A DNA stretch of 64,000 nt from Dromaius novaehollandiae. Lineage: Eukaryota > Chordata > Aves > Casuariiformes > Dromaiidae. The stretch is from contig NC_088117.1 in the NCBI RefSeq assembly GCF_036370855.1, forward strand, positions 806,001-870,000, in the 5' to 3' direction. Of the stretch, positions 13,031 to 64,000 are shown piece by piece. Positions within the stretch are counted from its first letter, which is position 1, and each line of letters opens with the position of its first letter. The notes beneath the pieces were generated by a model. The model saw only the letters and a program-made list of their open reading frames with translations. It had not been told where the DNA came from and made no database searches. A program made the position numbers and the translations under genes.

Positions 13031-14349
13031 CCTATTAAATGTTGATGCTTACATCAAAGCATGGGGAGAAACATGTGAGGACCCTGCTTACCTCTCTGTC
13101 TTCAGTTCTGCATGGCTGAGAGATGGAGTGTGACAGGACTTTTCTGGTTGTTGCTCAGAAATCAGCCGCTCAAGTCTGCCTGTAGTGCACTCCTACCCCT
13201 TGGGAGTTCTACTAAGCTCACTTGCCACCTGGAAATCCATATTGCTCCTGATGTTAGTGCTGACAAGTTAGCTGATCTTTCACTGCATGATTTGATGGTG
13301 AAAGGTATATCCGGTTTGGTAATGTCCATCTCTACCTCTAGATTGTTGTTCTGACTGTCTAGACCATCTCCCGGCACGCTGGGCAGGTGATGAATGAAAA
13401 CAGCAGGTTTATTGGCCTTGCACGAATCTTAAGTTTACCTCTTTCTAGGATGAATACCAGTGATGCTCCGTCATCTTTCAAACACAGAGAAGTTGCAGAT
13501 CAGTGGTGTCAGTAACACACCTGCTGATTTAGTTAAGCAGCTTCCCTATGGTAGTGGTATGTTTGTGTTCCTCAGCACTCCATGGTGTTAGTCTGAGGCA
13601 CCCTCAGTTCCTCTGTTTCGCTCCCAAGGCAGAGAGGCATTGAGGCAAGCAGAGGAGGCTCCACAGCTGGCTGTCCAGAAAAGGGAACCCATAAGGCTGT
13701 GGAAAGCTATGTCCACACTTTGCCATGTGATGCTACACGAGGACTGTCATGTTAGGGACAAAGTAGATGCTGCAGTCAAACAAGACATGCTATTTGAGGC
13801 CAGAGCCTTTCCAAGCCTGGGTTATCTTCCTGAAGCTGGACTTTAGCCCCCGAGCAGGGCAATCTGTATTGCCTTGACTCCCATTAGAAGCTCATGTTTC
13901 TTCTACTTCTCTCCTGGGGCACAGAACAGGCCATGAGGAGAGACCCTTTTCATTGGGTCTGAAAGCCCCATCCTGCACAAGCTCGAGTGACACCGCTCCG
14001 CCTTGAGCTCAGTTGCTGAGGAAGGTATGGGGAGAAGAAACCTCCACGCACACACTCTTCATGCCAGCCTCACAGTCCCTCCTGCACTACTGCAGTTGCA
14101 GCTCTCGACTCCTCCCCTCTCTGGGGCAAAGGAGCAGGAAAGAGAGGGAGTTTCCCTAAACCACGAAGAATGTGGCTCCAGCAGAAGAATTACGTAATGA
14201 CCCTTTAAACTGCCCCCAGAGCAGGGACTGAAACACATTCCCTGTCTCTGAGCTGTCCTTTTCCTGACCCTGCAAAGCTCGCATATTGCTCAGTGCAGAG
14301 CAATGCACACCTTGCCAAGGACAGATGCACAACAATTTGGAGATTTGGT

Positions 14350-17300
14350 TTTATTCAACACAAGAACGCTTTGGCAGCACAGCTGGCAGTTGCTGGTTCA
14401 CATTGTGCTGGACTGGCTCTCTAGCCCTGAGAAGTGAAAAGAAGTTCAGTTTTAGGTACAGAAAGAAAGCAAGGAAATACAGCAGGCCTAATGCAGGCCA
14501 GGTATTAATGGAGCCGCTTTGAGCAGCATTTCAGTGGTCTCTGTGATACGGCACAGGCACTCCTGCCCAAGCCAGTGAGAAGTCCCCAGTGCAACTAATC
14601 AGTCGGGGGCTGAGTCAAGTGGGAACTGAGTCAGGCAGTACCTGCGATGGAGTGAATAGGTATCAACCCCCAGGGCAAAGGGTCTTGGTGTCTGTACTCT
14701 GAGAGGGTAGGACAGGCTTGCCAGTCTGAAAATGGAGAGCCGAACGTTGGACAAATCCTTATGTCTTCAGCCACCTATGTCCAAAGCGGAAATCTTATTC
14801 TGAGTCATCAGCAACTTCCCCTTCAGTTAAGGACTGTCTGACCAAGGCCACAGACTCAGAAGTGTGCTGCTGTCCCTCCCACGGGAGGTGCCAGGAGAAG
14901 TCCCTCTAGGTGCTGCTGGAAGTGGAAGGAGAGAGGGACACCCCATTGCAGCAGATAGCTCTTTACTCACTTGAGCCTCCTCTTCATGATCCCTCTGTCT
15001 ACTGATCTCTCTTGTCTGTCCCTGCGTGACCTTCTCCACCAGAGATGTCACTGCTGCGAGCAATGCCTGCGTTTTCCTAGGAGAAATGTGCCTGCAAAAG
15101 CAGGGAGAAACCCTCTCTCATGCTCTGGTTGAAACCTTCCTGCCTCTCACCTTCCCCAGGCCCTGCACACAGAGTCTCACTGGTGCCCACAGCATGAGGT
15201 TTAGGCATTTGCTTTGGGCTGCAGAAAGGCACCTGGAGTTGGGGGCTCCTGACCCCAGGTCTCCCCATGGCTTGACAGCTCAGAGGAGAGCCACGGATCA
15301 GGGATTTGGATCCTTGACCCTGCAGATGGGTCAGTGCTACTCAGCTGCCCCAGGCCTTGGCACGACTTGCTCCATACTTACCTTTTTGGGGGTATCTCCA
15401 GTGAGTTGTCACCCTCCTTCTCTGAGGATGATTCGCCATCCTCTTTCCAGTTCCCCATCATTCCCTCTATGAGATCTGGGCTGGTCACCTTCCTCCTCAT
15501 GCTGGCAGAAGGGATTTGCGTGGTGCCCCAAGAAACAGTGGGTTTCTGCAAAGGAAGGGAGAATCTCAGACAAGCATGCTGCAAAGACACAGGGCTGTTT
15601 GCTAGCGTACAGATCCCAGGGGTGAATTCTGGCCAGGATACTGTGGCAGTAGAGGGGGAACCAGAAGAAGGACCTCCGCCTGCCCCAGGAGTTGGGATTT
15701 TGTTTTTTGTTGGTGGTGGGTTTGTGTTTTTTAAAGGAATTTCTAATCAAAAGCCCTCACAGTTTTGCAGAACTCTTTTTTACTTTCCATTTCATCCAGC
15801 ACCTAGCCATAATATCTCAACAGATACAGTTTCTACCACCATGCAGGGGCAAAAAGTAGCATGCAGTTTAGATGGAAGTGTGGGCAGAGGCCATACCACT
15901 GATCAGCGCTGAAGGCCTGTAGTGCTGCAAAGGCATGTTTACAACACTCCTTCTCAAATCTTTTTGTCCAGTGAAGTTAAAGACTTCATCCCTTGTGCAT
16001 TGAGACAAGCAGAACTTTTTTTAATGTCAGCATGCTTGGAAGGAAATCCTAGTGCTTCGGTTAAAAACTATAAACTTCCAGAAAATGTGCCTTCCTATTA
16101 CGAATAATGTTCCTGATCATTCCAATGCAGTGAAGACTAAATAAAAGAACTAGCTGCCTTATAGGTAGTCTAGGTATGGCTCAGGTCATTGGACTGTGAA
16201 CAGATGTGTCCAAATGCAAGTGCAGATACCTGAAACAGAGCTTGTCTGAGTTCGGGGGAGGGATGATCAGTGTATGTGCTCACCATGGCAGATTGCTGGC
16301 TTTGCCCTTTGGCTTCTTCTAACTACATCTCCCTTACAGTAATAAGCAGGCAAGCATGACAGATAGGAGTCACCTGCCCTGCAATTTTGCAGCAATGATG
16401 CCATGCTGACTTGGAGACCTTCAAAGCTCAGCTCTTCTGGAGGAGAGAAATGCTATTTTACTGAGTGTTTCACAAGGTTTCTGGTACCTGGGCCTTCCAC
16501 AGATGTTCCCTTTCCCTTCTTGCTGTTGATGAAGGCGACCTTGTCCTTGCTGTCTTCAGGTACTTCTTACGTAAGGCTTCCCAGTGTTTACTTTGATCTT
16601 TCCTCACAGGGAGAGAGTAGAATTCCTGAAGGGTCACAGAAATGCAACAGTAGCAGTGGGAGTCTCATCTGTGCTTTGTGGGATTTTTTTAGTTCTCACC
16701 CTCTCTTCTGCCCCTTGTCTTTAGCCTTTCTATCAGCCATGTCTGCTCCTCAGTTATAACAGGCACAACCAAAGCACAAACTGAACAATGATCTGAATAG
16801 AAATTATTTCCTACCCTAGAAAAGCCTGGCATTTTTATTTGCATTATGAACAGTGCCTTTTTATCTCCATGAAGAATGGTGCCAAGGAAGATGGTCTGAT
16901 ATGTTGCATAAGATGACGGGAGCAAAGAACACACTCCAAAAAGACAAACAACTGAAGATACGTGGTTTAAAGGAAGCTCCAGAAGAAATCACTTAATGTT
17001 CAAATGAGTACAGATTAGCTATTTCAGACTCTGTAGCCATATAACTGTGCTTTTCTACAATGAATTATGAGACAAGAATTACATCACTGTCTATCATGTA
17101 CCTGTCCTGCTCTCTCAGGACTGTCACAAATAGTTTGTGCAGGTTGGGGTCCAGCCACAGGAGTGTCATTGCCTTGGCTTTTCTTTTTCCTGCACATTCT
17201 CCACTTCAAAACAGCCAGCTCACTGCAGACACACAGCAAGAGGAGTTAGTGGGAGCACAGGGAAGATTGCCATCCTTTGCTCCCAGGCTGGGCACCCCGC

Positions 17301-20300
17301 TCTGCAGCAGAAGGTGGCTCTACTGGGGAAGTGTGTGTTGGGAACAGCCCTTCTTTCCCCTGCTGCTGCTGGGGGTGGAAGCAAGGGCGTTGCCTGAGGG
17401 GAAACACCACCCATATCTGGATATATTTACCACTGCAGCTTATCTTCCCGATCCCTCTCTTCATGCCTGTGTCCCCTCCGACTTCGGTCAACCTGTCCCA
17501 GGATGCACGTCACTATCTCGAGCAGGGCCTGGCTTGTCCCTGGGGAAATTGGCCTAGAACAACAGGAAGAAACCCTCACTCATGCTCTGGCTGAAACCTT
17601 CCTGCCTCTCACCTTCCCCAGGCCCTGCACACAGAGTCTCATTGGTGCCCACAGCATGAGGTTTAGGCATTTGCTTTGGGCTGCAGAAAGGCACCTGGAG
17701 TTGGGGGCTCCTGACCCCAGGTCTCCCCATGGCTTGACAGCTCAGAGGAGAGCCACGGATCAGGGATTTGGATCCTTGACCCTGCAGATGGGTCAGTGCT
17801 ACTCAGCTGCCCCAGGCCTTGGCACGACTTGCTCCATACTTACCTTTTTGGGGGTATCTCCAGCGAGTTGTCACCCTCCTTCTCTGAGGATGATTCGCCA
17901 TCCTCTTTCCAGTTCCCCATCATTCCCTCTATGAGATCTGGGCTGGTCACCTTCCTCCTCATGCTGGCAGAAGGGATTTGCGTGGTGCCCCAAGAAACAG
18001 TGGGTTTCTGCAAAGGAAGGGAGAATCTCAGACAAGCATGCTGCAAAGACACAGGGCTGTTTGCCAGCGTACAGATCCCAGGGGTGAATTCTGGCCGGGA
18101 TACTGTGGCAGTAGAGGGGGAACCAGAAGAAGGACCTCCGCCTGCCCCAGGAGTTGGATGCTGGAGTCTGACCAGGGTTTCACTGCATCGCCCAATTGAC
18201 CCTTTCTCATGAGACTCCTGCCATTTTGCAGTAACAGTTCCAGGAATACTTGAAATAGCCTGAAATCTCAAGCTCCTCTGTAGGAGAGAGATGTTTTCTT
18301 CCTGTCTATTTTAAAATGCTGCCTGTACCGTGGCCCTCTGTAGCTTATCGTTTCCTCTCCCAGGGATCGGTGGTGCCAATTTTTCCTTTTCTTTCCTTCT
18401 GTCTTTCTCTTTCTTCTGCCATTCTTTCTTCTCCTGTCTTTCTACAGCTTGAAGTTCACAGAGACCTCTTTGGTGTCGTTTCTTAACCTGGAGGATTCTT
18501 CTCTGGAGGGCCACAGAAATGTAACAGCAGCAATGTCAGTCTCATCTGCTTTTGTTTTTATATTCATTATTATTATTGATTTCTCACTCTCTTTTCTGCC
18601 CCTTTTTGTCAGCTGTGTTTTGCTCCTGAATTATCGTGGGCTCAACCAAGGTGTGAACTAACCAATGATCTAAAAAACTCCTATTTCCTATCCCAGAAAA
18701 GCCTGGCATTTTGATTTTGAACTCCATTATGAATAGTGGCAAGGAAGGTGTTCTAATGTGTTTCATGAGACAACAGAAGTGAAGAGCAGATTCTAAACAT
18801 ACAGTAACCCCCATCTTTTAAAGTAGACTCCAGGAGAAGTCACTTAATGTACAAATGAGCACACACTGCGACATCTTTTCAGAGTCAATGGCTGTACAAC
18901 CGTGCTTTTCTACAATAAACTACTACGCAAACATTGCATCACTCCCTATTATATACCTGCTCTTTTGTCTTAATAGCTTCAGCAATAAAGTTTACAAGTT
19001 TTGGTCCAGCATGAGGGATTTCTTTCTTTTTGGCTTCCACTTTCTTCACTGAGCTCCACTGGATTGGTGGTGGTGGACTAAAAAGGTAGAATAGAAGGCA
19101 TCTGTATGAGTAGAGGACGAGTTTGTTTTCCAGTTTGGTCTCCCAAGGTGTGCCCCTGCAGCAGAAGGCAGCTAGCTCTGCAGGAAGATTGGTTGCATTC
19201 GACCAAGTACTTTCAAATACAGAGAAAGAGATAACCCCAAGCTGCAACATCAGGTGTGGCACAACACTCCCTAGGAAAGCTCAGGATGCCCAGGTTTAGG
19301 CCTTCTCTTGGTAGATCAAGAAGAAGGCCAGAGTCATGGGAATGGAGGCTCCTGTCTGTTATTTCAAGGCTCTAATACCACAGATCCCTCCTGGCAGTTG
19401 CATTAATGCTCTGATTACCCAACAAGGAAACTTTAGCATCTGTACCACATGGTAATAGCCTGCCAGACTTAGCCCAGACATTGTGTCTGAAGGAAACTTC
19501 TTATTCCTAAAAAGAATAAGAGCACAGGGTCCCCCACATCCATTTTCCCCCAAGTCTGACCTGTCAGGAAGCCCTTTTCCCCTGGTTTTGTGCATCTTGT
19601 CTTCCTCCTTATGGATAGAAGTCTTTTTGGGTGGAGCATGCCTCTCTCTGGAGAGAAGGCGATTGTCAGGAAGAGCCCCTGCAAGCAAGAAAGCAGAGAA
19701 CTCTTCAAACAGCATCTTTGTGCCCATTCTAACAGGAATGATGGGCAGGTGTGCATACATGTGATGAAACTGCACCAAGCCATCCCCCTGGAGCCATGTT
19801 TCCCATGAGGTTTTAGGCCTTTCCTGACACTGGATGTTGTCCAACTCTTAATTTCTAAAGGGTAATGTTATTCCCTGGGGAATTCTGGTACTACTGGCTT
19901 CTCTTGTCTATATCGTGAAAAGCAGGGGGAGGCCTTGCTGAGAAATGCTGGTGACTAAATGGAGCCTTGCGGGGAAGGAGGGAGAAATTCCCATGAAGGG
20001 CACAGACTTTGGGATCTCTCTACAGATCTCGTGTGTGCAAGTTCACTCTTTTGGTGTGTTCAGCCCAAAGATACTTGTATGTTTGTGAACAATTAAGAAA
20101 GCAGGACTGGAATTCCCAACTTTCAAAATGAAATGAAGTTGCCTATGCCTTGCATTGTAGCCTTGGCTATAATGTCCCATTAGTGAGGAGAATGTCCAAA
20201 CACCACCCAGGTGTCAACCGTTCCACTACCTTTTTTGTTGCCATTATCATCCTTCTCCTCCTCCTGTTCTTCGGTGAGCTCTGCGGGTCCTTTGATGGCA

Positions 20301-23300
20301 GGCTGCACAATCTGGAGTTCATACCTGGAAACCAGAAGACTCCAGTTTGAATAAGAGCTCCATATTTGCTTTGCACCTTGTGTTAATAATCTGGTCACAA
20401 AGATATTAGGGAGCTAATGTAAAATTTCTGGTAAGAGAGCAGAATATGCAGCATTACTCTAGACTATATCCAGAAACTGTGTGATGCATCATAGAGGTCC
20501 ACTGCTGATTAGTTCTGAATAACTTCCTGAGAGGACTTCACAAGCCCTGGCAAGACAGCACAACCAGACGCAAGCTGAGAAGGTCCTGGCTTGGTCAGCC
20601 AGGGGCTGCTGAACCCAACATACTCACTGTGGGAAGACAATGACACTGCCAGAGCGGATCTGGGAAGCCACAGTCTCAGTGCCTGACAGGACTGAATCCC
20701 TCATCTCTGGCATCTGCAATAGAGACAGAGACATGTGAGATGATGCCAAGGAAATTGTCTTCTTGCTCACAGAGGCAGCAAGCCACTCTCCTGCTCCTGT
20801 CCCTCTGAAACCCTGTCACCAAGTGCTCCTTCATTAACAATAATAACAGTAATAGCAAAGAGAAGCTGTTAAATAGATAATTTGGAATGGGTAATAGCAT
20901 CACCAGGCTTTTTTCTGAGGGCAAGAATCATGAGATTCAGTCAGGAGGCCCATTCTTTTCTAATGGAGAAGTCCAAGAAGGCAAGCAGATTTGATTAGCT
21001 GGGGTTTCTGGGTGTTGGCTTTTGTCTTTTGGCTTGTTGTGACTGTTCCTGAATGGAGAACAAAGGACTCAGATATGGGCTTAACCCCAAGTCTCTCCTA
21101 GGATGCAAATGACTGCATCTGCAGCTTGGAGTTACAGAGAGGCATAGTCCTTCCTTTTCCTTTGCACAGTTGTTAAGACCTGGGAGTGCCAAATATCTGA
21201 GGGGGTCCGGATCTTGGATGGGGACCTACTGGAGCAAAGGCCCAGACAACATGCTGACAAGACCCCAGAGAGTGAGCCAGGTGGGAGAGACAGAGCTGGG
21301 AACCAGGGCTGTGCTGCAGCCTGGCTGCACGTCTTGGGGTAAATCATTCCTCCCTCAGAGGGAATGAGGAGCTCATGTCTGCCGGTGCCTCTGGGTCTCG
21401 CCCAAGGCAAGAAGCAGCTGTGAAAGACGTGCTGGACAGGGAGAAGGTGAGGGGGGCATGATGAGTTCTCCTGACACAAGAACTCAGGGCTGTCCCATGA
21501 AATGATTAGGCATGCATTTTCTAACAGGGGCTCAGAAATGTTTGTGTGTAGCAGATGGTGAAATTGCCAAACTCACTACCTCAGAATCCCAAACATGGCC
21601 AAAGCAGAAACTCATTAATAAGCAGCAAGGTCACCTGATGCTGTTAACTCAGAGTGGCACCAGCCCAAATAGCTTTTCTGCTTTTGAAAAGCCCACCAGC
21701 TTTTCTGCTGGTGCCCAAAGAGCTTTTTCTTAGGCTCTTTCCCTTAGGCTTTTTCTTGGGGATGGGAGTGGGCTCACGGGGTCTTTGATTGGACCCAGTA
21801 CAGCTTTTCTTACATCCTGCTGCTGCCAAGACCTCTGAATGTGAGAGAAGGCCTTTACAGAGAGCTATAGTCCATGTCTAGCCCCAGAAGCTAGACCTCT
21901 TTTGGAAAGAGGAGCTATGAGTTCTCTTGTCCTTTAAGAGAAGTGCAAAAGAACTCCAAGTAGTACTAGAAAAATGGAAATCTTACTCCAAGAAGAGCTT
22001 CTAGCATCTTTTCAGTCCCATTCAGCCTTTTCAGAAAGTCTTTATAAAATCTTATTTTCACATCTTTTCCCTGGATAACAAGCATGCCGACATCATTTAA
22101 AACAAAGGCAACATTCTTGCCATTCTCTATGCAGAGAGAGAAAAGACGCATGGTCTTTTCTATGCAACCCTCCACTGTCCTCTGAGAAACGGAGATGTCT
22201 GAGGCAATCCGAGCATACTGCAGTTGCTCAATGTGGTTATGATCTGGAAAATAGTGCAAGAGGAAGAAAGCGTTACTGAAATGCTAAACAGAATAAACTG
22301 AAGAGTCAGCATCTGCTAGGACTAGAGGTGATACAGAGTATAGGTTGGTTGGTACCTCTGGTAATTTCCCTGAAAGTAAGTGCTGTAATCCCTTCCTGGA
22401 GGAAGTTCAAAGCTCTCTTACAATTGAGATGCCAAGGGGACAGCAATGATTTCTTCAACACAGAAATAGGAAGAAAGCCTCTCAGCCCTGTGGTACGAAC
22501 AGTACACAGGACAGCACGACTAGCAGGGAGGATGGAGACAGTCCCCATGACAAGGGGGAGGATGCTTGCCCATTGCATCTCTTCTCTCAGGCCATATACT
22601 CTGGGTTTGAAGAAGATTAGCCATGCCATGTCAAATGGCTGGAATGAAGAAGGAAAACAGCAGGACTTCACAACAGCCCTTAGAATTCTTCTCCCCTCTC
22701 CCCTCCCCACCCCCCCAAGTTTATCTGCAAATGTCTCCACTGTTTGTGTCAGTGTCCTCTCCCCAGGGGACACCAGGCTGATGGTCACAGCAGAGAGAAG
22801 GTGAGGTGCTTTGAAAGGAGAGGATCGCTCCAGACACAGCTGCAAGAGTGAGCAAAGGGGTTTTTCTTCTTACCAGGAATATCTTTGTTGTCATACGGGA
22901 GATCATAAGCCTTTGCAATAGCCCTCGAAAGACGAAACACTGGTCTCTCAACAACCACCAGGTCATTCTTTCTATTCTGTACTCGCTCTCTAACAACAGC
23001 AAATGTCCCCAGTCCAGCAATTCTGACAGGCTGAAAAGAAAGAGAAAGTCTAATACGAAGCATTCTTGTGATGGAAAAACTGACTGAGGTTGTACCTGAC
23101 CTGGGCACTTTGGAGAGCTTTGGCAAAGGCCTACAGAGTCTGGAGTTTTTCCTCTTCCTCTTCTTCACCCTCTAAGAACTGTTTGGTGTAGTAAAAGCTG
23201 AGCAATTATCCATTGACTAGAGGAGACCTAAGGGCCTTTCTGCTCTCTCTGCAGGGACTAGAGAAGCTCCAGAAAGTGTCCATCACTTTCTGAAACTGCG

Positions 23301-23955
23301 CTTGGACTTCCACTTTTATCTCAATTGACAGGGAAGCTGGTCTGTGGCACATTAGTCAACCACAGTGTCCTTCTGGGGCATTTTCTGGCTTCCAAAGGAC
23401 AGAAAGAATCATGGCACTGCATGACATGGGGATATTAAGAGGACTGAAACCACCAGGGTATGAGGGGAGGAACAGGAGGCAAGTCCCACCTGGTACAGCA
23501 TGAGCTGTAGACTAAGGTAATAGGATGTACAAGTCCAGATGTTATTGAACTCTGCAAAGCAAATGATAGATATGTCAAGCTCTGAGTCAGCAAGCTCATA
23601 ACCACTCAGTGCACCTCCAACCAAGAAAGGCAGCAGACGCAAGTGTAGCCAAGCACCCCCCACCAACCCCAAAGAAATGCCTCTTTGACAGGAACTTCAC
23701 AGCTGAGGTCTTGACTGACTTCAGACTAAAATCTTGATTATGACCACAGGAAAGGTCTGGAGCTGAAAGGGAGACCTCAGAAGTGTTTTCACCCAGGGGA
23801 TCCTGTCTTCTCACATCCGCAGTGGGAAGGCATCTCTGAGTCCAAAGCCTGCTCTGCCAATTTGGAGGTGCAAGGAGAGCCGGTGTGAAGAAACCAGAGG
23901 CAGTGGCTAGCGGACAAGAAGCCAAGCTGAGTTGATGAAAAGTCAAAGGCTTCAT
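14350..23955 (-). CDS. CCDC81-like: CCDC81-like gene, left-arm copy
   Basis: Mirror copy of the right-arm gene. Exons on the minus strand, in transcript order: 23,490-23,551; 22,874-23,030; 21,987-22,243; 20,628-20,713; 20,230-20,324; 19,561-19,678; 18,957-19,077; 18,329-18,502; 17,844-18,160; 17,431-17,553; 17,102-17,222; 16,488-16,625; 15,382-15,545; 14,971-15,091; 14,663-14,725 (stop). The polyadenylation signal is the complement of 14,350-14,355. A possible first exon lies around 23,665-23,955. All translated exon segments I compared equal the right copy; the differences I saw are intronic, for example at 17,641. Exon phases are consistent throughout, so this copy looks as intact as its partner. 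Domains and caveats are given under the right-arm gene. Confidence 0.7.
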
Positions 23956-23970
23956 TTCTAAAACGTGCAG

Positions 23971-24327
23971 TGTGGCATTCGACGACATGGACCACAAGAA
24001 GAATGGTGCAAAAAAGCCTGTATTGAAAACACAATGGCTGGTTATATAGCCACCAGCTCAGCCACTCCTCCAAGTATCTTCTTGGCATTGTGGCATCTTG
24101 TGATAGGTGGGTAAGGTGTCTTCTGATGCCTAGCAGGCGGGCAGGACAGGCCAGCAGGACAGGCCCACCGCAGCTGCTGACACGTAGGCAGGAAGGCACA
24201 CCGTGACTGCTGACACAGGCAGGAAGACACATGATCACTGGCAACTTCATAGTTACCAGATCATTACTTTCTGCCTTAGAGATCCTCTGCTGTCCTACAC
24301 AGCATCACTCAATCTTGGTCCCCAACA
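23971..24327 (-). mobile_element. ERVK-like 3' LTR, left arm
   Basis: Reads TGTTGGGGACC to TGCCACA on the minus strand. It lacks 2 bp present in the right-arm copy and carries the duplicated cctgcct...gtcagcag segment typical of this 3' LTR. A polypurine tract (AAAAAGAGGGG on minus) precedes it. It lies immediately upstream of the left CCDC81-like gene in the same orientation. Confidence 0.85.
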
Positions 24328-24621
24328 TATCCCCTCTTTTTATTTATTAAACTTAAAGCTTGTCAGGTAGGGGAGACAGATAACAAGGATTAGAGATCTT
24401 ACCAAGATTACCAATTCACACGTCAGTGCCTTCTTAACTTATGCCCCAAGCCTAACGTCCAATCCTATCCCTTAAAAGGCTTCCCCTCTAATTCTATCTA
24501 ATCCACAACTTATCAGTGCACTTATATTCTATCCATAACTTATCAGTGCAGTTATATTCTATCTATAACTTATCCTATATTCTATCTATATCTTATCAGC
24601 CTATATTCTGTCTATATCTCA

Positions 24622-25314: not shown

Positions 25315-25342
25315 TCTTCCAAACGAGGGATAATGGGTAACA

Positions 25343-26326: not shown

Positions 26327-26461
26327 AGGTTAACCCTCGGCGATAGCTTGAAATCAGTTCATGGTGTAAGCTGACTGGAGGCCGTAATCCTCAACCGAGT
26401 TCCTGACTCCTTTCACCGCCTCATAAGGCAGCTGCTCCCATGCAGTGGGTTGCCCTGCCTG

Positions 26462-33480: not shown

Positions 33481-33482
33481 AA

Positions 33483-43991: not shown

Positions 43992-43994
43992 ACA

Positions 43995-46510: not shown

Positions 46511-46524
46511 TGATGATGGAATAT

Positions 46525-50610: not shown

Positions 50611-50745
50611 CAGGCAGGGCAACCCACTGCATGGGAGCAGCTGCCTTATGAGGCGGTGAAAGGAGTCAGGAACTCGGTTGAGGATTACGGCCTCCAGTCA
50701 GCTTACACCATGAACTGATTTCAAGCTATCGCCGAGGGTTAACCT

Positions 50746-51729: not shown

Positions 51730-51757
51730 TGTTACCCATTATCCCTCGTTTGGAAGA

Positions 51758-52450
51758 TTGAAGTATGTTCACGTCTCTGTAGATACCTTTTCCCATTACG
51801 CTGTCGCTACTGCCCATGTTGGGGAGAAGAGCCGTGATGTTTGTCATCACTGGCTTGCCTGTTTCGCCGTAATGGGGGTTCCTGCTCAAATTAAGACTGA
51901 CAATGGTCCCGCATACACGGCACAACGAACACGGGCCTTTCTTCAAGCTTGGGGGGTCACTCATGTGACCAGAATTCCCCATTCCCCAGCTGGCCAGGCA
52001 ATAGTGGAACGTACCCATCGTACCCTGAAAGAAAAGCTTGAGAAACAAAAAAGGGGAAATAGCCCTGGCGCTTCCCCACAAGAGCAACTCTGGAAGGCTC
52101 TGTATGTTCTTAACTTCTTAAACCGATATACGGACCAGAGTGCAGTTAATAAGCATCTCTCATGTCCTACAGGGCGAGAACAACCTCGAGATCGCTACAG
52201 GGACCTGGAGACAGGTCAGTGGAGTGAACCGGTGGATCTAATAACGTGGGGGAAAGGTTACGCTTGTGTTTCCACAGGTAACGGACTTCACTGGATACCT
52301 GTACGACTGATTCGACCTGTTGGTGTGTTCCTCGGGATGCCGGGTGAGGGCTGGGAGCCAGTTGAGATGAACCCATCTTGGGGTATTTTCGGCGGTGTTT
52401 GTCTGCCTTGTGCAGGATCACTGTTGATTTGCAGAGGCTTATTGCATTGA
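51758..52450 (+). pseudogene. ERVK-like integrase segment, right arm
   Basis: A 230-codon frame with all three DDE positions (VSVDTFSHY, KTDNGPAYT, VERTHRTLK) and the C-terminal DNA-binding region. The N-terminal HHCC domain is lost. The ORF runs on into the tandem repeat that replaces env. Confidence 0.8.
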
Positions 52451-52454
52451 TGAG

Positions 52455-52575
52455 ATATAGACAGAATATAGGCTGATAAGATATAGATAGAATATAGGAT
52501 AAGTTATAGATAGAATATAACTGCACTGATAAGTTATGGATAGAATATAAGTGCACTGATAAGTTGTGGATTAGA
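52455..52575 (+). repeat. AT-rich tandem repeat in place of env
   Basis: About five imperfect units of gataagttatagatagaata with a longer period including tgcactgataag. Mirror at 24,497-24,617. Confidence 0.85.
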
Positions 52576-52744
52576 CAGAATTAGAGTGGAAGCCTTTTAA
52601 GGGATAGGATTGGACGTTAGGCTTGGGGCATAAGTTAAGAAGGCACTGACGTGTGAATTGGTAATCTTGGTAAGATCTCTAATCCTTGTTATCTGTCTCC
52701 CCTACCTGACAAGCTTTGAGTTTAATAAATAAAAAGAGGGGATA

Positions 52745-53103
52745 TGTTGGGGACCAAGATTGAGTGATGCTGTGTAGGACAGCAGAGGATCTCTAAGGCA
52801 GAAAGTAATGATCTGGTAACTATGAAGTTGCCAGTGATCATGTGTCTTCCTGCCTATGTGTCAGCAGTCACGGTGTGCCTTCCTGCCTATGTGTCAGCAG
52901 CTGCGGTGGGCCTGTCCTGCTGGCCTGTCCTGCCCGCCTGCTAGGCATCAGAAGACACCTTACCCACCTATCACAAGATGCCACAATGCCAAGAAGATAC
53001 TTGGAGGAGTGGCTGAGCTGGTGGCTATATAACCAGCCATTGTGTTTTCAATACAGGCTTTTTTGCACCATTCTTCTTGTGGTCCATGTCGTCGAATGCC
53101 ACA
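52745..53103 (+). promoter_or_regulatory. ERVK-like 3' LTR, potential promoter of the CCDC81-like gene
   Basis: TATATAA at 53,027-53,033 in a TGTTGGGG...TGCCACA LTR, same strand as the gene, ending 420 bp before the first recognised exon. The first ATG after the expected start site is at 53,086, still inside the LTR, and opens a frame to 53,478. That frame could splice at 53,410 (TTG/GTGGGG) in the phase the next exon needs. This is an inference; the donor is weak and an ATG at 53,119 is an alternative. Confidence 0.45.
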
Positions 53104-53118: not shown

Positions 53119-56100
53119 ATGAAGCCTTTGACTTTTCATCAACTCAGCTTGGCTTCTTGTCCGCTAGCCACTGCCTCTGGTTTCTTCACACCGGCTCTCC
53201 TTGCACCTCCAAATTGGCAGAGCAGGCTTTGGACTCAGAGATGCCTTCCCACTGCGGATGTGAGAAGACAGGATCCCCTGGGTGAAAACACTTCTGAGGT
53301 CTCCCTTTCAGCTCCAGACCTTTCCTGTGGTCATAATCAAGATTTTAGTCTGAAGTCAGTCAAGACCTCAGCTGTGAAGTTCCTGTCAAAGAGGCATTTC
53401 TTTGGGGTTGGTGGGGGGTGCTTGGCTACACTTGCGTCTGCTGCCTTTCTTGGTTGGAGGTGCACTGAGTGGTTATGAGCTTGCTGACTCAGAGCTTGAC
53501 ATATCTATCATTTGCTTTGCAGAGTTCAATAACATCTGGACTTGTACATCCTATTACCTTAGTCTACAGCTCATGCTGTACCAGGTGGGACTTGCCTCCT
53601 GTTCCTCCCCTCATACCCTGGTGGTTTCAGTCCTCTTAATATCCCCATGTCATGCAGTGCCATGATTCTTTCTGTCCTTTGGAAGCCAGAAAATGCCCCA
53701 GAAGGACACTGTGGTTGACTAATGTGCCACAGACCAGCTTCCCTGTCAATTGAGATAAAAGTGGAAGTCCAAGCGCAGTTTCAGAAAGTGATGGACACTT
53801 TCTGGAGCTTCTCTAGTCCCTGCAGAGAGAGCAGAAAGGCCCTTAGGTCTCCTCTAGTCAATGGATAATTGCTCAGCTTTTACTACACCAAACAGTTCTT
53901 AGAGGGTGAAGAAGAGGAAGAGGAAAAACTCCAGACTCTGTAGGCCTTTGCCAAAGCTCTCCAAAGTGCCCAGGTCAGGTACAACCTCAGTCAGTTTTTC
54001 CATCACAAGAATGCTTCGTATTAGACTTTCTCTTTCTTTTCAGCCTGTCAGAATTGCTGGACTGGGGACATTTGCTGTTGTTAGAGAGCGAGTACAGAAT
54101 AGAAAGAATGACCTGGTGGTTGTTGAGAGACCAGTGTTTCGTCTTTCGAGGGCTATTGCAAAGGCTTATGATCTCCCGTATGACAACAAAGATATTCCTG
54201 GTAAGAAGAAAAACCCCTTTGCTCACTCTTGCAGCTGTGTCTGGAGCGATCCTCTCCTTTCAAAGCACCTCACCTTCTCTCTGCTGTGACCATCAGCCTG
54301 GTGTCCCCTGGGGAGAGGACACTGACACAAACAGTGGAGACATTTGCAGATAAACTTGGGGGGGTGGGGAGGGGAGAGGGGAGAAGAATTCTAAGGGCTG
54401 TTGTGAAGTCCTGCTGTTTTCCTTCTTCATTCCAGCCATTTGACATGGCATGGCTAATCTTCTTCAAACCCAGAGTATATGGCCTGAGAGAAGAGATGCA
54501 ATGGGCAAGCATCCTCCCCCTTGTCATGGGGACTGTCTCCATCCTCCCTGCTAGTCGTGCTGTCCTGTGTACTGTTCGTACCACAGGGCTGAGAGGCTTT
54601 CTTCCTATTTCTGTGTTGAAGAAATCATTCCTGTCCCCTTGGCATCTCAATTGTAAGAGAGCTTTGAACTTCCTCCAGGAAGGGATTACAGCACTTACTT
54701 TCAGGGAAATTACCAGAGGTACCAACCAACCTATACTCTGTATCACCTCTAGTCCTAGCAGATGCTGACTCTTCAGTTTATTCTGTTTAGCATTTCAGTA
54801 ACGCTTTCTTCCTCTTGCACTATTTTCCAGATCATAACCACATTGAGCAACTGCAGTATGCTCGGATTGCCTCAGACATCTCCGTTTCTCAGAGGACAGT
54901 GGAGGGTTGCATAGAAAAGACCATGCGTCTTTTCTCTCTCTGCATAGAGAATGGCAAGAATGTTGCCTTTGTTTTAAATGATGTCGGCATGCTTGTTATC
55001 CAGGGAAAAGATGTGAAAATAAGATTTTATAAAGACTTTCTGAAAAGGCTGAATGGGACTGAAAAGATGCTAGAAGCTCTTCTTGGAGTAAGATTTCCAT
55101 TTTTCTAGTACTACTTGGAGTTCTTTTGCACTTCTCTTAAAGGACAAGGGAACTCATAGCTCCTCTTTCCAAAAGAGGTCTAGCTTCTGGGGCTAGACAT
55201 GGACTATAGCTCTCTGTAAAGGCCTTCTCTCACATTCAGAGGTCTTGGCAGCAGCAGGATGTAAGAAAAGCTGTACTGGGTCCAATCAAAGACCCCGTGA
55301 GCCCACTCCCATCCCCAAGAAAAAGTCTAAGGGAAAGAGCCTAAGAAAAAGCTCTTTGGGCACCAGCAGAAAAGCTGGTGGGCTTTTCAAAAGCAGAAAA
55401 GCTATTTGGGCTGGTGCCACTCTGAGTTAACAGCATCAGGTGACCTTGCTGCTTATTAATGAGTTTCTGCTTTGGCCATGTTTGGGATTCTGAGGTAGTG
55501 AGTTTGGCAATTTCACCATCTGCTACACACAAACATTTCTGAGCCCCTGTTAGAAAATGCATGCCTAATCATTTCATGGGACAGCCCTGAGTTCTTGTGT
55601 CAGGAGAACTCATCATGCCCCCCTCACCTTCTCCCTGTCCAGCACGTCTTTCACAGCTGCTTCTTGCCTTGGGCGAGACCCAGAGGCACCGGCAGACATG
55701 AGCTCCTCATTCCCTCTGAGGGAGGAATGATTTACCCCAAGACGTGCAGCCAGGCTGCAGCACAGCCCTGGTTCCCAGCTCTGTCTCTCCCACCTGGCTC
55801 ACTCTCTGGGGTCTTGTCAGCATGTTGTCTGGGCCTTTGCTCCAGTAGGTCCCCATCCAAGATCCGGACCCCCTCAGATATTTGGCACTCCCAGGTCTTA
55901 ACAACTGTGCAAAGGAAAAGGAAGGACTATGCCTCTCTGTAACTCCAAGCTGTAGATGCAGTCATTTGCATCCTAGGAGAGACTTGGGGTTAAGCCCATA
56001 TCTGAGTCCTTTGTTCTCCATTCAGGAACAGTCACAACAAGCCAAAAGACAAAAGCCAACACCCAGAAACCCCAGCTAATCAAATCTGCTTGCCTTCTTG

Positions 56101-59100
56101 GACTTCTCCATTAGAAAAGAATGGGCCTCCTGACTGAATCTCATGATTCTTGCCCTCAGAAAAAAGCCTGGTGATGCTATTACCCATTCCAAATTATCTA
56201 TTTAACAGCTTCTCTTTGCTATTACTGTTATTATTGTTAATGAAGGAGCACTTGGTGACAGGGTTTCAGAGGGACAGGAGCAGGAGAGTGGCTTGCTGCC
56301 TCTGTGAGCAAGAAGACAATTTCCTTGGCATCATCTCACATGTCTCTGTCTCTATTGCAGATGCCAGAGATGAGGGATTCAGTCCTGTCAGGCACTGAGA
56401 CTGTGGCTTCCCAGATCCGCTCTGGCAGTGTCATTGTCTTCCCACAGTGAGTATGTTGGGTTCAGCAGCCCCTGGCTGACCAAGCCAGGACCTTCTCAGC
56501 TTGCGTCTGGTTGTGCTGTCTTGCCAGGGCTTGTGAAGTCCTCTCAGGAAGTTATTCAGAACTAATCAGCAGTGGACCTCTATGATGCATCACACAGTTT
56601 CTGGATATAGTCTAGAGTAATGCTGCATATTCTGCTCTCTTACCAGAAATTTTACATTAGCTCCCTAATATCTTTGTGACCAGATTATTAACACAAGGTG
56701 CAAAGCAAATATGGAGCTCTTATTCAAACTGGAGTCTTCTGGTTTCCAGGTATGAACTCCAGATTGTGCAGCCTGCCATCAAAGGACCCGCAGAGCTCAC
56801 CGAAGAACAGGAGGAGGAGAAGGATGATAATGGCAACAAAAAAGGTAGTGGAACGGTTGACACCTGGGTGGTGTTTGGACATTCTCCTCACTAATGGGAC
56901 ATTATAGCCAAGGCTACAATGCAAGGCATAGGCAACTTCATTTCATTTTGAAAGTTGGGAATTCCAGTCCTGCTTTCTTAATTGTTCACAAACATACAAG
57001 TATCTTTGGGCTGAACACACCAAAAGAGTGAACTTGCACACACGAGATCTGTAGAGAGATCCCAAAGTCTGTGCCCTTCATGGGAATTTCTCCCTCCTTC
57101 CCCGCAAGGCTCCATTTAGTCACCAGCATTTCTCAGCAAGGCCTCCCCCTGCTTTTCACGATATAGACAAGAGAAGCCAGTAGTACCAGAATTCCCCAGG
57201 GAATAACATTACCCTTTAGAAATTAAGAGTTGGACAACATCCAGTGTCAGGAAAGGCCTAAAACCTCATGGGAAACATGGCTCCAGGGGGATGGCTTGGT
57301 GCAGTTTCATCACATGTATGCACACCTGCCCATCATTCCTGTTAGAATGGGCACAAAGATGCTGTTTGAAGAGTTCTCTGCTTTCTTGCTTGCAGGGGCT
57401 CTTCCTGACAATCGCCTTCTCTCCAGAGAGAGGCATGCTCCACCCAAAAAGACTTCTATCCATAAGGAGGAAGACAAGATGCACAAAACCAGGGGAAAAG
57501 GGCTTCCTGACAGGTCAGACTTGGGGGAAAATGGATGTGGGGGACCCTGTGCTCTTATTCTTTTTAGGAATAAGAAGTTTCCTTCAGACACAATGTCTGG
57601 GCTAAGTCTGGCAGGCTATTACCATGTGGTACAGATGCTAAAGTTTCCTTGTTGGGTAATCAGAGCATTAATGCAACTGCCAGGAGGGATCTGTGGTATT
57701 AGAGCCTTGAAATAACAGACAGGAGCCTCCATTCCCATGACTCTGGCCTTCTTCTTGATCTACCAAGAGAAGGCCTAAACCTGGGCATCCTGAGCTTTCC
57801 TAGGGAGTGTTGTGCCACACCTGATGTTGCAGCTTGGGGTTATCTCTTTCTCTGTATTTGAAAGTACTTGGTCGAATGCAACCAATCTTCCTGCAGAGCT
57901 AGCTGCCTTCTGCTGCAGGGGCACACCTTGGGAGACCAAACTGGAAAACAAACTCGTCCTCTACTCATACAGATGCCTTCTATTCTACCTTTTTAGTCCA
58001 CCACCACCAATCCAGTGGAGCTCAGTGAAGAAAGTGGAAGCCAAAAAGAAAGAAATCCCTCATGCTGGACCAAAACTTGTAAACTTTATTGCTGAAGCTA
58101 TTAAGACAAAAGAGCAGGTATATAATAGGGAGTGATGCAATGTTTGCGTAGTAGTTTATTGTAGAAAAGCACGGTTGTACAGCCATTGACTCTGAAAAGA
58201 TGTCGCAGTGTGTGCTCATTTGTACATTAAGTGACTTCTCCTGGAGTCTACTTTAAAAGATGGGGGTTACTGTATGTTTAGAATCTGCTCTTCACTTCTG
58301 TTGTCTCATGAAACACATTAGAACACCTTCCTTGCCACTATTCATAATGGAGTTCAAAATCAAAATGCCAGGCTTTTCTGGGATAGGAAATAGGAGTTTT
58401 TTAGATCATTGGTTAGTTCACACCTTGGTTGAGCCCACGATAATTCAGGAGCAAAACACAGCTGACAAAAAGGGGCAGAAAAGAGAGTGAGAAATCAATA
58501 ATAATAATGAATATAAAAACAAAAGCAGATGAGACTGACATTGCTGCTGTTACATTTCTGTGGCCCTCCAGAGAAGAATCCTCCAGGTTAAGAAACGACA
58601 CCAAAGAGGTCTCTGTGAACTTCAAGCTGTAGAAAGACAGGAGAAGAAAGAATGGCAGAAGAAAGAGAAAGACAGAAGGAAAGAAAAGGAAAAATTGGCA
58701 CCACCGATCCCTGGGAGAGGAAACGATAAGCTACAGAGGGCCACGGTACAGGCAGCATTTTAAAATAGACAGGAAGAAAACATCTCTCTCCTACAGAGGA
58801 GCTTGAGATTTCAGGCTATTTCAAGTATTCCTGGAACTGTTACTGCAAAATGGCAGGAGTCTCATGAGAAAGGGTCAATTGGGCGATGCAGTGAAACCCT
58901 GGTCAGACTCCAGCATCCAACTCCTGGGGCAGGCGGAGGTCCTTCTTCTGGTTCCCCCTCTACTGCCACAGTATCCCGGCCAGAATTCACCCCTGGGATC
59001 TGTACGCTGGCAAACAGCCCTGTGTCTTTGCAGCATGCTTGTCTGAGATTCTCCCTTCCTTTGCAGAAACCCACTGTTTCTTGGGGCACCACGCAAATCC

Positions 59101-62100
59101 CTTCTGCCAGCATGAGGAGGAAGGTGACCAGCCCAGATCTCATAGAGGGAATGATGGGGAACTGGAAAGAGGATGGCGAATCATCCTCAGAGAAGGAGGG
59201 TGACAACTCGCTGGAGATACCCCCAAAAAGGTAAGTATGGAGCAAGTCGTGCCAAGGCCTGGGGCAGCTGAGTAGCACTGACCCATCTGCAGGGTCAAGG
59301 ATCCAAATCCCTGATCCGTGGCTCTCCTCTGAGCTGTCAAGCCATGGGGAGACCTGGGGTCAGGAGCCCCCAACTCCAGGTGCCTTTCTGCAGCCCAAAG
59401 CAAATGCCTAAACCTCATGCTGTGGGCACCAGTGAGACTCTGTGTGCAGGGCCTGGGGAAGGTGAGAGGCAGGAAGGTTTCAGCCAGAGCATGAGTGAGG
59501 GTTTCTTCCTGTTGTTCTAGGCCAATTTCCCCAGGGACAAGCCAGGCCCTGCTCGAGATAGTGACGTGCATCCTGGGACAGGTTGACCGAAGTCGGAGGG
59601 GACACAGGCATGAAGAGAGGGATCGGGAAGATAAGCTGCAGTGGTAAATATATCCAGATATGGGTGGTGTTTCCCCTCAGGCAACGCCCTTGCTTCCACC
59701 CCCAGCAGCAGCAGGGGAAAGAAGGGCTGTTCCCAACACACACTTCCCCAGTAGAGCCACCTTCTGCTGCAGAGCGGGGTGCCCAGCCTGGGAGCAAAGG
59801 ATGGCAATCTTCCCTGTGCTCCCACTAACTCCTCTTGCTGTGTGTCTGCAGTGAGCTGGCTGTTTTGAAGTGGAGAATGTGCAGGAAAAAGAAAAGCCAA
59901 GGCAATGACACTCCTGTGGCTGGACCCCAACCTGCACAAACTATTTGTGACAGTCCTGAGAGAGCAGGACAGGTACATGATAGACAGTGATGTAATTCTT
60001 GTCTCATAATTCATTGTAGAAAAGCACAGTTATATGGCTACAGAGTCTGAAATAGCTAATCTGTACTCATTTGAACATTAAGTGATTTCTTCTGGAGCTT
60101 CCTTTAAACCACGTATCTTCAGTTGTTTGTCTTTTTGGAGTGTGTTCTTTGCTCCCGTCATCTTATGCAACATATCAGACCATCTTCCTTGGCACCATTC
60201 TTCATGGAGATAAAAAGGCACTGTTCATAATGCAAATAAAAATGCCAGGCTTTTCTAGGGTAGGAAATAATTTCTATTCAGATCATTGTTCAGTTTGTGC
60301 TTTGGTTGTGCCTGTTATAACTGAGGAGCAGACATGGCTGATAGAAAGGCTAAAGACAAGGGGCAGAAGAGAGGGTGAGAACTAAAAAAATCCCACAAAG
60401 CACAGATGAGACTCCCACTGCTACTGTTGCATTTCTGTGACCCTTCAGGAATTCTACTCTCTCCCTGTGAGGAAAGATCAAAGTAAACACTGGGAAGCCT
60501 TACGTAAGAAGTACCTGAAGACAGCAAGGACAAGGTCGCCTTCATCAACAGCAAGAAGGGAAAGGGAACATCTGTGGAAGGCCCAGGTACCAGAAACCTT
60601 GTGAAACACTCAGTAAAATAGCATTTCTCTCCTCCAGAAGAGCTGAGCTTTGAAGGTCTCCAAGTCAGCATGGCATCATTGCTGCAAAATTGCAGGGCAG
60701 GTGACTCCTATCTGTCATGCTTGCCTGCTTATTACTGTAAGGGAGATGTAGTTAGAAAAAGCCAAAGGGCAAAGCCAGCAATCTGCCATGGTGAGCACAT
60801 ACACTGATCATCCCTCCCCCGAACTCAGACAAGCTCTGTTTCAGGTATCTGCACTTGCATTTGGACACATCTGTTCACAGTCCAATGACCTGAGCCATAT
60901 CTAGACTACCTATAAGGCAGCTAGTTCTTTTATTTAGTCTTCACTGCATTGGAATGATCAGGATCATTATTCGTAATAGGAAGGCACATTTTCTGGAAGT
61001 TTATAGTTTTTAACCGAAGCACTAGGATTTCCTTCCAAGCATGCTGACATTAAAAAAAGTTCTGCTTGTCTCAATGCACAAGGGATGAAGTCTTTAACTT
61101 CACTGGACAAAAAGATTTGAGAAGGAGTGTTGTAAACATGCCTTTGCAGCACTACAGGCCTTCAGCGCTGATCAGTGGTATGGCCTCTGCCCACACTTCC
61201 ATCTAAACTGCATGCTACTTTTTGCCCCTGCATGGTGGTAGAAACTGTATCTGTTGAGATATTATGGCTAGGTGCTGGATGAAATGGAAAGTAAAAAAGA
61301 GTTCTGCAAAACTGTGAGGGCTTTTGATTAGAAATTCCTTTAAAAAACACAAACCCACCACCAACAAAAAACAAAATCCCAACTCCTGGGGCAGGCGGAG
61401 GTCCTTCTTCTGGTTCCCCCTCTACTGCCACAGTATCCTGGCCAGAATTCACCCCTGGGATCTGTACGCTAGCAAACAGCCCTGTGTCTTTGCAGCATGC
61501 TTGTCTGAGATTCTCCCTTCCTTTGCAGAAACCCACTGTTTCTTGGGGCACCACGCAAATCCCTTCTGCCAGCATGAGGAGGAAGGTGACCAGCCCAGAT
61601 CTCATAGAGGGAATGATGGGGAACTGGAAAGAGGATGGCGAATCATCCTCAGAGAAGGAGGGTGACAACTCACTGGAGATACCCCCAAAAAGGTAAGTAT
61701 GGAGCAAGTCGTGCCAAGGCCTGGGGCAGCTGAGTAGCACTGACCCATCTGCAGGGTCAAGGATCCAAATCCCTGATCCGTGGCTCTCCTCTGAGCTGTC
61801 AAGCCATGGGGAGACCTGGGGTCAGGAGCCCCCAACTCCAGGTGCCTTTCTGCAGCCCAAAGCAAATGCCTAAACCTCATGCTGTGGGCACCAGTGAGAC
61901 TCTGTGTGCAGGGCCTGGGGAAGGTGAGAGGCAGGAAGGTTTCAACCAGAGCATGAGAGAGGGTTTCTCCCTGCTTTTGCAGGCACATTTCTCCTAGGAA
62001 AACGCAGGCATTGCTCGCAGCAGTGACATCTCTGGTGGAGAAGGTCACGCAGGGACAGACAAGAGAGATCAGTAGACAGAGGGATCATGAAGAGGAGGCT

Positions 62101-62724
62101 CAAGTGAGTAAAGAGCTATCTGCTGCAATGGGGTGTCCCTCTCTCCTTCCACTTCCAGCAGCACCTAGAGGGACTTCTCCTGGCACCTCCCGTGGGAGGG
62201 ACAGCAGCACACTTCTGAGTCTGTGGCCTTGGTCAGACAGTCCTTAACTGAAGGGGAAGTTGCTGATGACTCAGAATAAGATTTCCGCTTTGGACATAGG
62301 TGGCTGAAGACATAAGGATTTGTCCAACGTTCGGCTCTCCATTTTCAGACTGGCAAGCCTGTCCTACCCTCTCAGAGTACAGACACCAAGACCCTTTGCC
62401 CTGGGGGTTGATACCTATTCACTCCATCGCAGGTACTGCCTGACTCAGTTCCCACTTGACTCAGCCCCCGACTGATTAGTTGCACTGGGGACTTCTCACT
62501 GGCTTGGGCAGGAGTGCCTGTGCCGTATCACAGAGACCACTGAAATGCTGCTCAAAGCGGCTCCATTAATACCTGGCCTGCATTAGGCCTGCTGTATTTC
62601 CTTGCTTTCTTTCTGTACCTAAAACTGAACTTCTTTTCACTTCTCAGGGCTAGAGAGCCAGTCCAGCACAATGTGAACCAGCAACTGCCAGCTGTGCTGC
62701 CAAAGCGTTCTTGTGTTGAATAAA
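53119..62724 (+). CDS. CCDC81-like: CCDC81-like gene, right-arm copy
   Basis: Exons: possible first exon to 53,410; 53,523-53,584; 54,044-54,200; 54,831-55,087; 56,361-56,446; 56,750-56,844; 57,396-57,513; 57,997-58,117; 58,572-58,745; 58,914-59,230; 59,521-59,643; 59,852-59,972; 60,449-60,586; 61,529-61,692; 61,983-62,103; 62,349-62,411 (TGA); AATAAA at 62,719. From 53,523 on the phases fit at every junction and give 705 codons without a stop. The first three exons encode two HU-like domains as in CCDC81 (PVRIAGLGTFAVV; KDVKIRFYKDFLKRLNGT), a centrosomal protein in mammals. Lys/Glu-rich coiled-coil cassettes follow. Further small exons may lie between 55,088 and 56,360. An intact-looking, expressed paralogue is likely, not proven. 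Confidence 0.75.
53523..54200 (+). CDS. CCDC81-like: HU-like domain 1 exons of the CCDC81-like gene
   Basis: Exon 53,523-53,584 gives the helix before the turn (IWTCTSYYLSLQLMLYQ). Exon 54,044-54,200 gives the strand region (PVRIAGLGTFAVVRERV) and RPVFRLSRAIAKAYDLPYD. The Leu-Tyr-Gln/Pro-Val-Arg joint falls where CCDC81 proteins have their conserved I-x-GLGTF loop. The short intron is 459 bp. Confidence 0.8.
54831..55087 (+). CDS. CCDC81-like: HU-like domain 2 exon of the CCDC81-like gene
   Basis: A 257-nt exon from DHNHIEQLQYARIASDISVS through VEGCIEKTMRLFSLCIENGK to FYKDFLKRLNGTEKMLEALLG. It enters in phase 1 and leaves in phase 0 before GTAAGA. Family resemblance is strong across the whole exon. 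Confidence 0.85.
55240..55430 (+). other. Ambiguous exon region after HU-like domain 2
   Basis: A good acceptor (tcacattcag) is followed either by a 21-nt in-frame microexon ending at a GTAAGA donor (55,261) or by a longer Lys-rich frame that stops at 55,428-55,430. The longer form would give a short protein ending after the HU domains. Confidence 0.35.
57997..59643 (+). CDS. CCDC81-like: Exon cassette A of the CCDC81-like gene
   Basis: Four exons: 57,997-58,117 (PPPPIQWSSVKKVEAKKKE, then GPKLVNFIAEAIKTKEQ), 58,572-58,745 (coiled coil, RQEKKEWQKKEKDRRKEKEK), 58,914-59,230 (Ser/Pro/Glu-rich, KPTVSWGTTQIPSASMRRK) and 59,521-59,643 (SQALLEIVTCILGQV). The introns between them also recur in cassette B. 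Confidence 0.7.
58917..59507 (+). repeat. Recent direct duplication, copy 1 (right arm)
   Basis: About 590 bp nearly identical to 61,379-61,968 (differences such as ccgggata/cctggcca-side changes and cgctgg/cgctag). Mirror copies lie in the left arm at 17,567-18,157 and 15,106-15,695. Confidence 0.85.
59852..62103 (+). CDS. CCDC81-like: Exon cassette B of the CCDC81-like gene (tandem duplicate of A)
   Basis: 59,852-59,972, 60,449-60,586, 61,529-61,692 and 61,983-62,103 match the four exons of cassette A in order and phase. The third exon is nearly identical to A over its last 164 nt but lacks A's acceptor, because the copied block begins just inside it (61,379). The other exons are more diverged, so two events of different age are likely. 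Confidence 0.7.
61379..61968 (+). repeat. Recent direct duplication, copy 2 (right arm)
   Basis: Partner of 58,917-59,507 about 2.46 kb downstream. It starts abruptly after caaaaaacaaaa, within the equivalent of the exon at 58,914. Confidence 0.85.
62349..62724 (+). CDS. CCDC81-like: Terminal exon and 3' UTR of the CCDC81-like gene, right arm
   Basis: Acceptor ccattttcag, 20 codons (TGKPVLPSQSTDTKTLCPGG) to TGA at 62,409-62,411, then a UTR to AATAAA at 62,719-62,724. It enters in phase 0, as the exon ending at 62,103 requires. Confidence 0.6.
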
Positions 62725-62740
62725 ACCAAATCTCCAAATT

Positions 62741-64000
62741 GTTGTGCATCTGTCCTTGGCAAGGTGTGCATTGCTCTGCACTGAGCAATATGCGAGCTTT
62801 GCAGGGTCAGGAAAAGGACAGCTCAGAGACAGGGAATGTGTTTCAGTCCCTGCTCTGGGGGCAGTTTAAAGGGTCATTACGTAATTCTTCTGCTGGAGCC
62901 ACATTCTTCGTGGTTTAGGGAAACTCCCTCTCTTTCCTGCTCCTTTGCCCCAGAGAGGGGAGGAGTCGAGAGCTGCAACTGCAGTAGTGCAGGAGGGACT
63001 GTGAGGCTGGCATGAAGAGTGTGTGCGTGGAGGTTTCTTCTCCCCATACCTTCCTCAGCAACTGAGCTCAAGGCGGAGCGGTGTCACTCGAGCTTGTGCA
63101 GGATGGGGCTTTCAGACCCAATGAAAAGGGTCTCTCCTCATGGCCTGTTCTGTGCCCCAGGAGAGAAGTAGAAGAAACATGAGCTTCTAATGGGAGTCAA
63201 GGCAATACAGATTGCCCTGCTCGGGGGCTAAAGTCCAGCTTCAGGAAGATAACCCAGGCTTGGAAAGGCTCTGGCCTCAAATAGCATGTCTTGTTTGACT
63301 GCAGCATCTACTTTGTCCCTAACATGACAGTCCTCGTGTAGCATCACATGGCAAAGTGTGGACATAGCTTTCCACAGCCTTATGGGTTCCCTTTTCTGGA
63401 CAGCCAGCTGTGGAGCCTCCTCTGCTTGCCTCAATGCCTCTCTGCCTTGGGAGCGAAACAGAGGAACTGAGGGTGCCTCAGACTAACACCATGGAGTGCT
63501 GAGGAACACAAACATACCACTACCATAGGGAAGCTGCTTAACTAAATCAGCAGGTGTGTTACTGACACCACTGATCTGCAACTTCTCTGTGTTTGAAAGA
63601 TGACGGAGCATCACTGGTATTCATCCTAGAAAGAGGTAAACTTAAGATTCGTGCAAGGCCAATAAACCTGCTGTTTTCATTCATCACCTGCCCAGCGTGC
63701 CGGGAGATGGTCTAGACAGTCAGAACAACAATCTAGAGGTAGAGATGGACATTACCAAACCGGATATACCTTTCACCATCAAATCATGCAGTGAAAGATC
63801 AGCTAACTTGTCAGCACTAACATCAGGAGCAATATGGATTTCCAGGTGGCAAGTGAGCTTAGTAGAACTCCCAAGGGGTAGGAGTGCACTACAGGCAGAC
63901 TTGAGCGGCTGATTTCTGAGCAACAACCAGAAAAGTCCTGTCACACTCCATCTCTCAGCCATGCAGAACTGAAGACAGAGAGGTAAGCAGGGTCCTCACA
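62741..64000. other. Outer arm sequence beyond the gene (mirrors 13,074-14,333)
   Basis: Both copies hold small ORFs and a second AATAAA at 63,659. The ORF at 63,697-63,912 is identical in both arms but shows no family. No feature could be assigned. Confidence 0.4.

Follow-up and report, generated by a model that had tools for sequence, protein, structure and literature searches.

A retrovirus-lined palindrome with two CCDC81-like genes and unevenly diverged arms, probably from the emu lineage

The stretch of DNA presented above (the window, 64,000 bases in its whole length) carries two CCDC81-like genes in the arms of a large inverted repeat, and the question that this locus raises is how such a pair of genes came about. 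We lean, if only slightly, towards a real palindrome of the emu lineage, lined by endogenous retroviruses (ERVs) and likely autosomal, the copying of its gene-bearing outer part between the arms being younger than the divergence of the inner part. The species, the autosomal place, the copying mechanism and the order of events are the parts of this reading that we infer.

Comparison of the window with itself yielded a single large inverted repeat, in which positions 13074-29206 (arm 1, plus strand) align with 64000-47866 (arm 2, minus strand) at 99.727% identity over 16,135 columns. Between the arms we counted 42 substitutions, of which 27 are transitions, and a single gap of 2 bases, an overall divergence of 0.26%, and the outermost part of arm 1 (13074-16109) shows no differences to arm 2. 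Five order-1 resamplings of the window gave inverted matches of 24 bases at most, which rules out a chance origin, and the inverted repeat is a real feature of the sequence. The preliminary description had announced a giant palindrome and proposed such a self-comparison, and the single repeat found agrees with it. It had also given arms of at least 17.5 kb around a 15.3-kb spacer. The "at least" holds, as arm 2 is cut by the window end (64000) and the arm length is a lower bound, but the sizes have to be revised to strict arms of at least 16.1 kb and a spacer of 18,659 bases (29207-47865); the former figures had counted in 1.3 kb of broken retroviral homology (29207-30540 / 45867-47865). A 17.5-kb arm taken as one homogeneous unit was rejected, given that these inner stretches share no more than 86-92% identity and are interrupted by insertions and deletions in either copy.

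The differences between the arms are not evenly spread (Kolmogorov-Smirnov p = 4e-10). The outer, gene-bearing zone of arm 1 (13074-24183, plus strand) holds 8 differences in 11,110 bases (0.072%) and the inner, retroviral zone (24184-29206, plus strand) 34 in 5,023 (0.68%), with the best change point at 24184, inside the 3' long terminal repeat (LTR) of a provirus that we call ERV1. The rise inward is about ninefold, none of 10,000 random placements of the differences was as good, and neither zone taken by itself departs significantly from an even spread (p = 0.50 and 0.16). The final 206 bases before the spacer are 2.4% diverged (5 substitutions). Such non-uniform divergence would fit arm-to-arm gene conversion. 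At five sites the direction of change could be polarised: the derived state is in arm 1 at three of them (one in an exon repeat and two in the LTR, including the 2-base gap) and in arm 2 at the other two.

Composition changes in the same region. The observed/expected ratio of CpG, calculated per 1-kb bin, starts at 0.02-0.35 across 1-24000 (24 bins), reaches 0.28-0.95 across 24001-53000 (29 bins) and returns to 0.10-0.24 in the remaining 11, so that the bin ranges overlap slightly. The two borders fall at the 3' LTRs of ERV1 and, being mirror images of each other, count as one observation. The divergence change lies at this composition border or up to 1.7 kb outward from it. The contrast in CpG is due in part simply to the retroviral nature of the inner arm.

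The gene of arm 1 (14971-23551, minus strand) was placed in 14 exons by its HU domains, its splice sites and the emu gene models P0005 and P0008, and that of arm 2 occupies 53523-62103 (plus strand), with its first seven placed exons identical to those of arm 1; none of the 42 substitutions between the arms falls in the 1,933 placed exon bases. In both arms transcription points away from the spacer, and the two head-opposed CCDC81-like genes of the preliminary description are thus recovered. Among single reading frames, HU-CCDC81 domain 2 was recognised at 88.3 bits and domain 1 stayed below the cut-off (26.1). Splicing of the first seven exons produced an open chain of 298 residues with matches to HU-CCDC81_euk_2 (85.5 bits) and HU-CCDC81_euk_1 (27.5 bits; cut-offs 26.1), the latter covering only profile positions 24-87 of 89. 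The seven further exons, down to 14971, were placed with P0005 and P0008; their splice sites fit, and all 14 exons are in phase.

The stretch 23560-30000, to which the search was confined, yielded no recognisable first coding exon. We rejected the 60 candidates found there as chance matches, since, with three different N-termini as queries, 85, 39 and 51 of 100 shuffled versions did as well as the best of them. In the relatives P0002 and P0007 about 20 N-terminal residues precede the first exon placed in the window, and the emu gene models begin at inner methionines. The gene is nearly complete and open, without a visible start within 23560-30000. Of the "full, phase-consistent" gene formerly ascribed to each arm, the CCDC81-like exons and their phase are confirmed, but "full" is not, given the unrecognised first exon and an HU domain 1 that sets in at profile position 24.

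A side observation concerns a duplication within the gene. A block of about 650 bases at 15047-15695 (minus strand), containing one exon and part of a second, has a partner at 17509-18157 (96.3%), and the pair is mirrored at 61379-62027 / 58917-59565, the two copies being 96.3-96.5% alike in each arm. The emu model LOC135330406, described below, uses the one exon from both copies, and one of the differences between the arms (17642, derived in arm 1) sits in this block.

Beside each gene, just upstream and on the same strand, lies ERV1, at equivalent positions in the two arms: 23971-27738 (minus strand) in arm 1, with LTRs at 27389-27738 and 23971-24327, and 49334-53103 (plus strand) in arm 2, with LTRs at 49334-49683 and 52745-53103. 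The provirus is short and its frames are interrupted; it has paired TG...CA LTRs, 89% alike, and Gag_p10, reverse transcriptase (with thumb) and integrase domains. The differences between its LTRs are largely the same in both arms, 36 being common to them and five alignment columns (four sites) differing from arm to arm. The shared site and the 36 shared LTR differences make ERV1 older than the last common ancestor of the arms. No target-site duplication flanks it (compared over lengths of 6, 5 and 4 bases, the flanks agree at none, one and one), as expected if recombination joined two proviruses. About 0.4 kb separates the end of the 3' LTR from the first placed exon downstream of it; the LTR has the sense orientation and could, as a guess, serve as promoter of the gene. 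The reverse transcriptase frame, read from stop to stop, has 247 residues in arm 1 (25343-26086) and 328 in arm 2 (50743-51729); the proviruses of the two arms have begun to differ.

At the inner edges of the arms similarity decreases: the border piece (29000-29215) is 95.0% alike, and those that follow inward, as far as 30540 / 45867, have 92.3, 86.5, 88.2, 91.4 and 88.5% identity. Judged by their domain matches, these pieces are fragments of a second, diverged retrovirus (ERV2) in opposite directions. The left fragment (29207-30540, minus strand) matches 47865-45867 in pieces of 86-92% identity with insertions and deletions and gave an integrase at 21.0 bits, below the cut-off of 32.6, and the right one (44596-47865, plus strand) gave a reverse transcriptase at 51.9 bits and RNase H pieces below cut-off. 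The right copy also has about 760 extra bases at 46525-47286, parts of which resemble 28426-28618 (85%) and 42281-42606 (70%); this is probably an inserted further repeat.

These elements suggest how the gene pair may have formed. An inverted pair of ERVs around the spacer would be the older core. The CCDC81-like gene would have lost its start exon where the LTR of ERV1 now stands, and exchange between the arms would then have carried the gene block across, or kept its two copies similar, one gene becoming two. The route would be either arm-to-arm gene conversion or break-induced copying through the inverted copies of ERV1, which are not distinguishable here. The coincidence, at or near ERV1, of the change in composition, the change in divergence and the first exon not found in 23560-30000 suggests a recombination junction there. 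A more specific version, in which an autosomal palindrome grew by nested, ERV-driven steps, appears to us possible but doubtful: the inverted ERV1-ERV2 pair would have come first and the gene block would have been copied across afterwards, with the border of exchange at the LTR of ERV1, which would have replaced the start exon of two identical genes and may be the promoter of both.

The relatives of the gene bear on where the palindrome lies and on whether it is real. In two protein searches the only near-identical matches with a species name were emu LOC135330404 (99% identity along 66% of the query) and LOC135330406 (99% along 46%), which share one emu sequence of 14,747,216 bases; the proteins P0001 and P0006 also match the window gene at 98-99%, and the other named matches were from other birds, at 43-63%. 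Aligned with LOC135330404, the window protein shows 2 differences in 195 residues, and with LOC135330406 it shows 1 in 140 and three more further on. Between the two emu models three of the shared residues differ, between the two gene copies of the window none. From these comparisons, the window very likely belongs to the emu or to a close relative of it, but would not be the very sequence behind the two models, which, if they belong to the same assembly, would be further copies. Their numbers suggest neighbouring loci, going by the usual numbering and not by coordinates. The emu Z chromosome measures roughly 81 Mb. Two loci of 99% identity on one 14.75-Mb sequence speak against an artefact of one assembly as well as against this Z, and the likeliest place for the palindrome is an autosome the size of a microchromosome.

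The uneven divergence could also be read without any exchange, as one recent inverted duplication whose inner, CpG-rich retroviral DNA merely mutates faster. The observed/expected CpG ratio of the inner zone is indeed 0.555 against 0.167 in the outer one, and CpG transitions make up 10 of the 34 inner differences and none of the 8 outer ones. The excess nevertheless persists once CpG transitions are removed (24 inner against 8 outer differences, p = 4e-7), and we regard this explanation as distinctly improbable. A misassembly, with both haplotypes of a single locus fused in opposite orientation by way of inverted ERV copies, is unlikely in our view, although it has to be taken seriously, as inverted ERVs are in fact present at the inner borders. 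The ERV2 copies, 86-92% alike with insertions and deletions, would be a poor trap for modern reads, and the window has no N bases. Derived states in both arms (three against two of the five sites) point to two templates, to which two alleles would correspond equally well, and the emu sequence with the two named loci holds copies that differ from each other, at the three shared residues, and from the window. A chimera from a read folding back on itself was rejected, in view of the 18.7-kb spacer and the private changes held by both arms.

High identity of gene-bearing arms is also what the ampliconic palindromes of Y and W chromosomes look like, and bird W palindromes are on record (PMC7787181, in the text available of it). 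The preliminary description had proposed a test of sex linkage. Such a link is not supported, considering the 14.75-Mb sequence of the nearest relatives, and a sex-chromosome origin is very improbable. Several points weigh against the exchange between arms of a real, autosomal palindrome that we favour. An arm divergence of 0.26% also lies in a range that the two haplotypes at a single locus could show. The stretch 22445-24183 is free of differences, so that the change in divergence may lie anywhere in it and its match to the LTR is loose. The step (lnL -269.7, 3 parameters) surpasses a gradient (-270.8, 2 parameters) by a small margin only, which leaves a single late event unsupported, and the direction of G+C changes between the arms, unpolarised, is balanced (20 against 18). 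The start exon, in turn, may be too diverged to be recognised or sit beyond 30000.

The spacer has no long match inside the window apart from the ERV pieces and short repeats, the longest being one of the spacer to itself (637 columns, 66.6%). No Pfam family (E 0.05) was found in any of ten chosen spacer frames, a selection of the frames of the spacer; of eight further chosen frames two gave weak retroviral matches below cut-off, and of two others one gave a reverse transcriptase above cut-off and one an integrase below it. One spacer frame, compared with all proteins (scoring was limited to the 7,980 candidates with the most words in common), matched 14 emu proteins, all encoded on a 219.5-Mb sequence. 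In the 11 matches for which the aligned part is reported it covers 16-21% of the query, and we therefore read them as a shared repeat and not as a gene. The CpG-rich peak of the spacer, at 40001-42000, has 69-70% G+C and a signal-peptide-like start on the minus strand, without a Pfam family, and short pieces of it match emu proteins of the 219.5-Mb sequence.

In the left flank, none of ten chosen frames surpassed the Pfam cut-offs, and one match of 13.4 bits (cut-off 27) was dismissed. LINE-like remains, presumably of CR1, were observed at 10919-11999, with an endonuclease at 27.3 bits, just below the cut-off of 27.4, and 10196-10926 and 11358-12065 form a repeat (75% alike). No Rfam match was obtained in the window at gathering scores, and a phage collection gave none for 20100-23100, as expected.

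Like the window gene, the goshawk protein P0007 (52%, over the whole query) and the ostrich protein P0012 (53% over 82%) are CCDC81-like and have both HU-CCDC81 domains; the window gene differs from them in having no first exon with a start codon in the stretch searched. Text searches of the literature retrieved no title or abstract opening on an expansion of CCDC81 in birds. A 2017 paper on HU/IHF proteins is said to describe CCDC81 and such an expansion.

Palindromes of comparable build are known from sex chromosomes. According to the text available of PMC3723533 and PMC8981503, the human Y palindromes P1-P8 and the primate X palindromes have inverted arms of more than 99% identity, mostly around a unique spacer, with genes in the arms that are homogenised by gene conversion. 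The window resembles them in its gene-bearing inverted arms of more than 99% identity around a spacer, and differs in that it is probably not sex-linked, has arms of at least 16 kb with an inner zone about ninefold more diverged, and has gene conversion only as a candidate process. The W palindromes of the duck, 15.2-345.5 kb long, were formed by nested repeats and transposable elements, in which the ERV-lined palindrome of the window would resemble them, and seem, as far as the available part of the paper goes, to be without robustly expressed genes (PMC7787181), whereas the window palindrome has open gene exons, and its nearest relatives lie on a sequence that is too short to be the Z. The palindrome of New World sparrows and blackbirds (Davis 2010, by its title as cited in PMC7787181) is a bird palindrome with gene conversion as well, but is W-linked, unlike that of the window.

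The bird palindromes named in the available text of PMC7787181 are on the W, and it is suggested there that sex-linked palindromes accompany a strong differentiation of the sex chromosomes. If the palindrome described here, with its open gene exons and with retroviruses close to the change in divergence, is autosomal, it would show in a recombining chromosome in what order the ERVs inserted, the inverted duplication arose and copying between the arms took place, and the locus would set a boundary to that suggestion.

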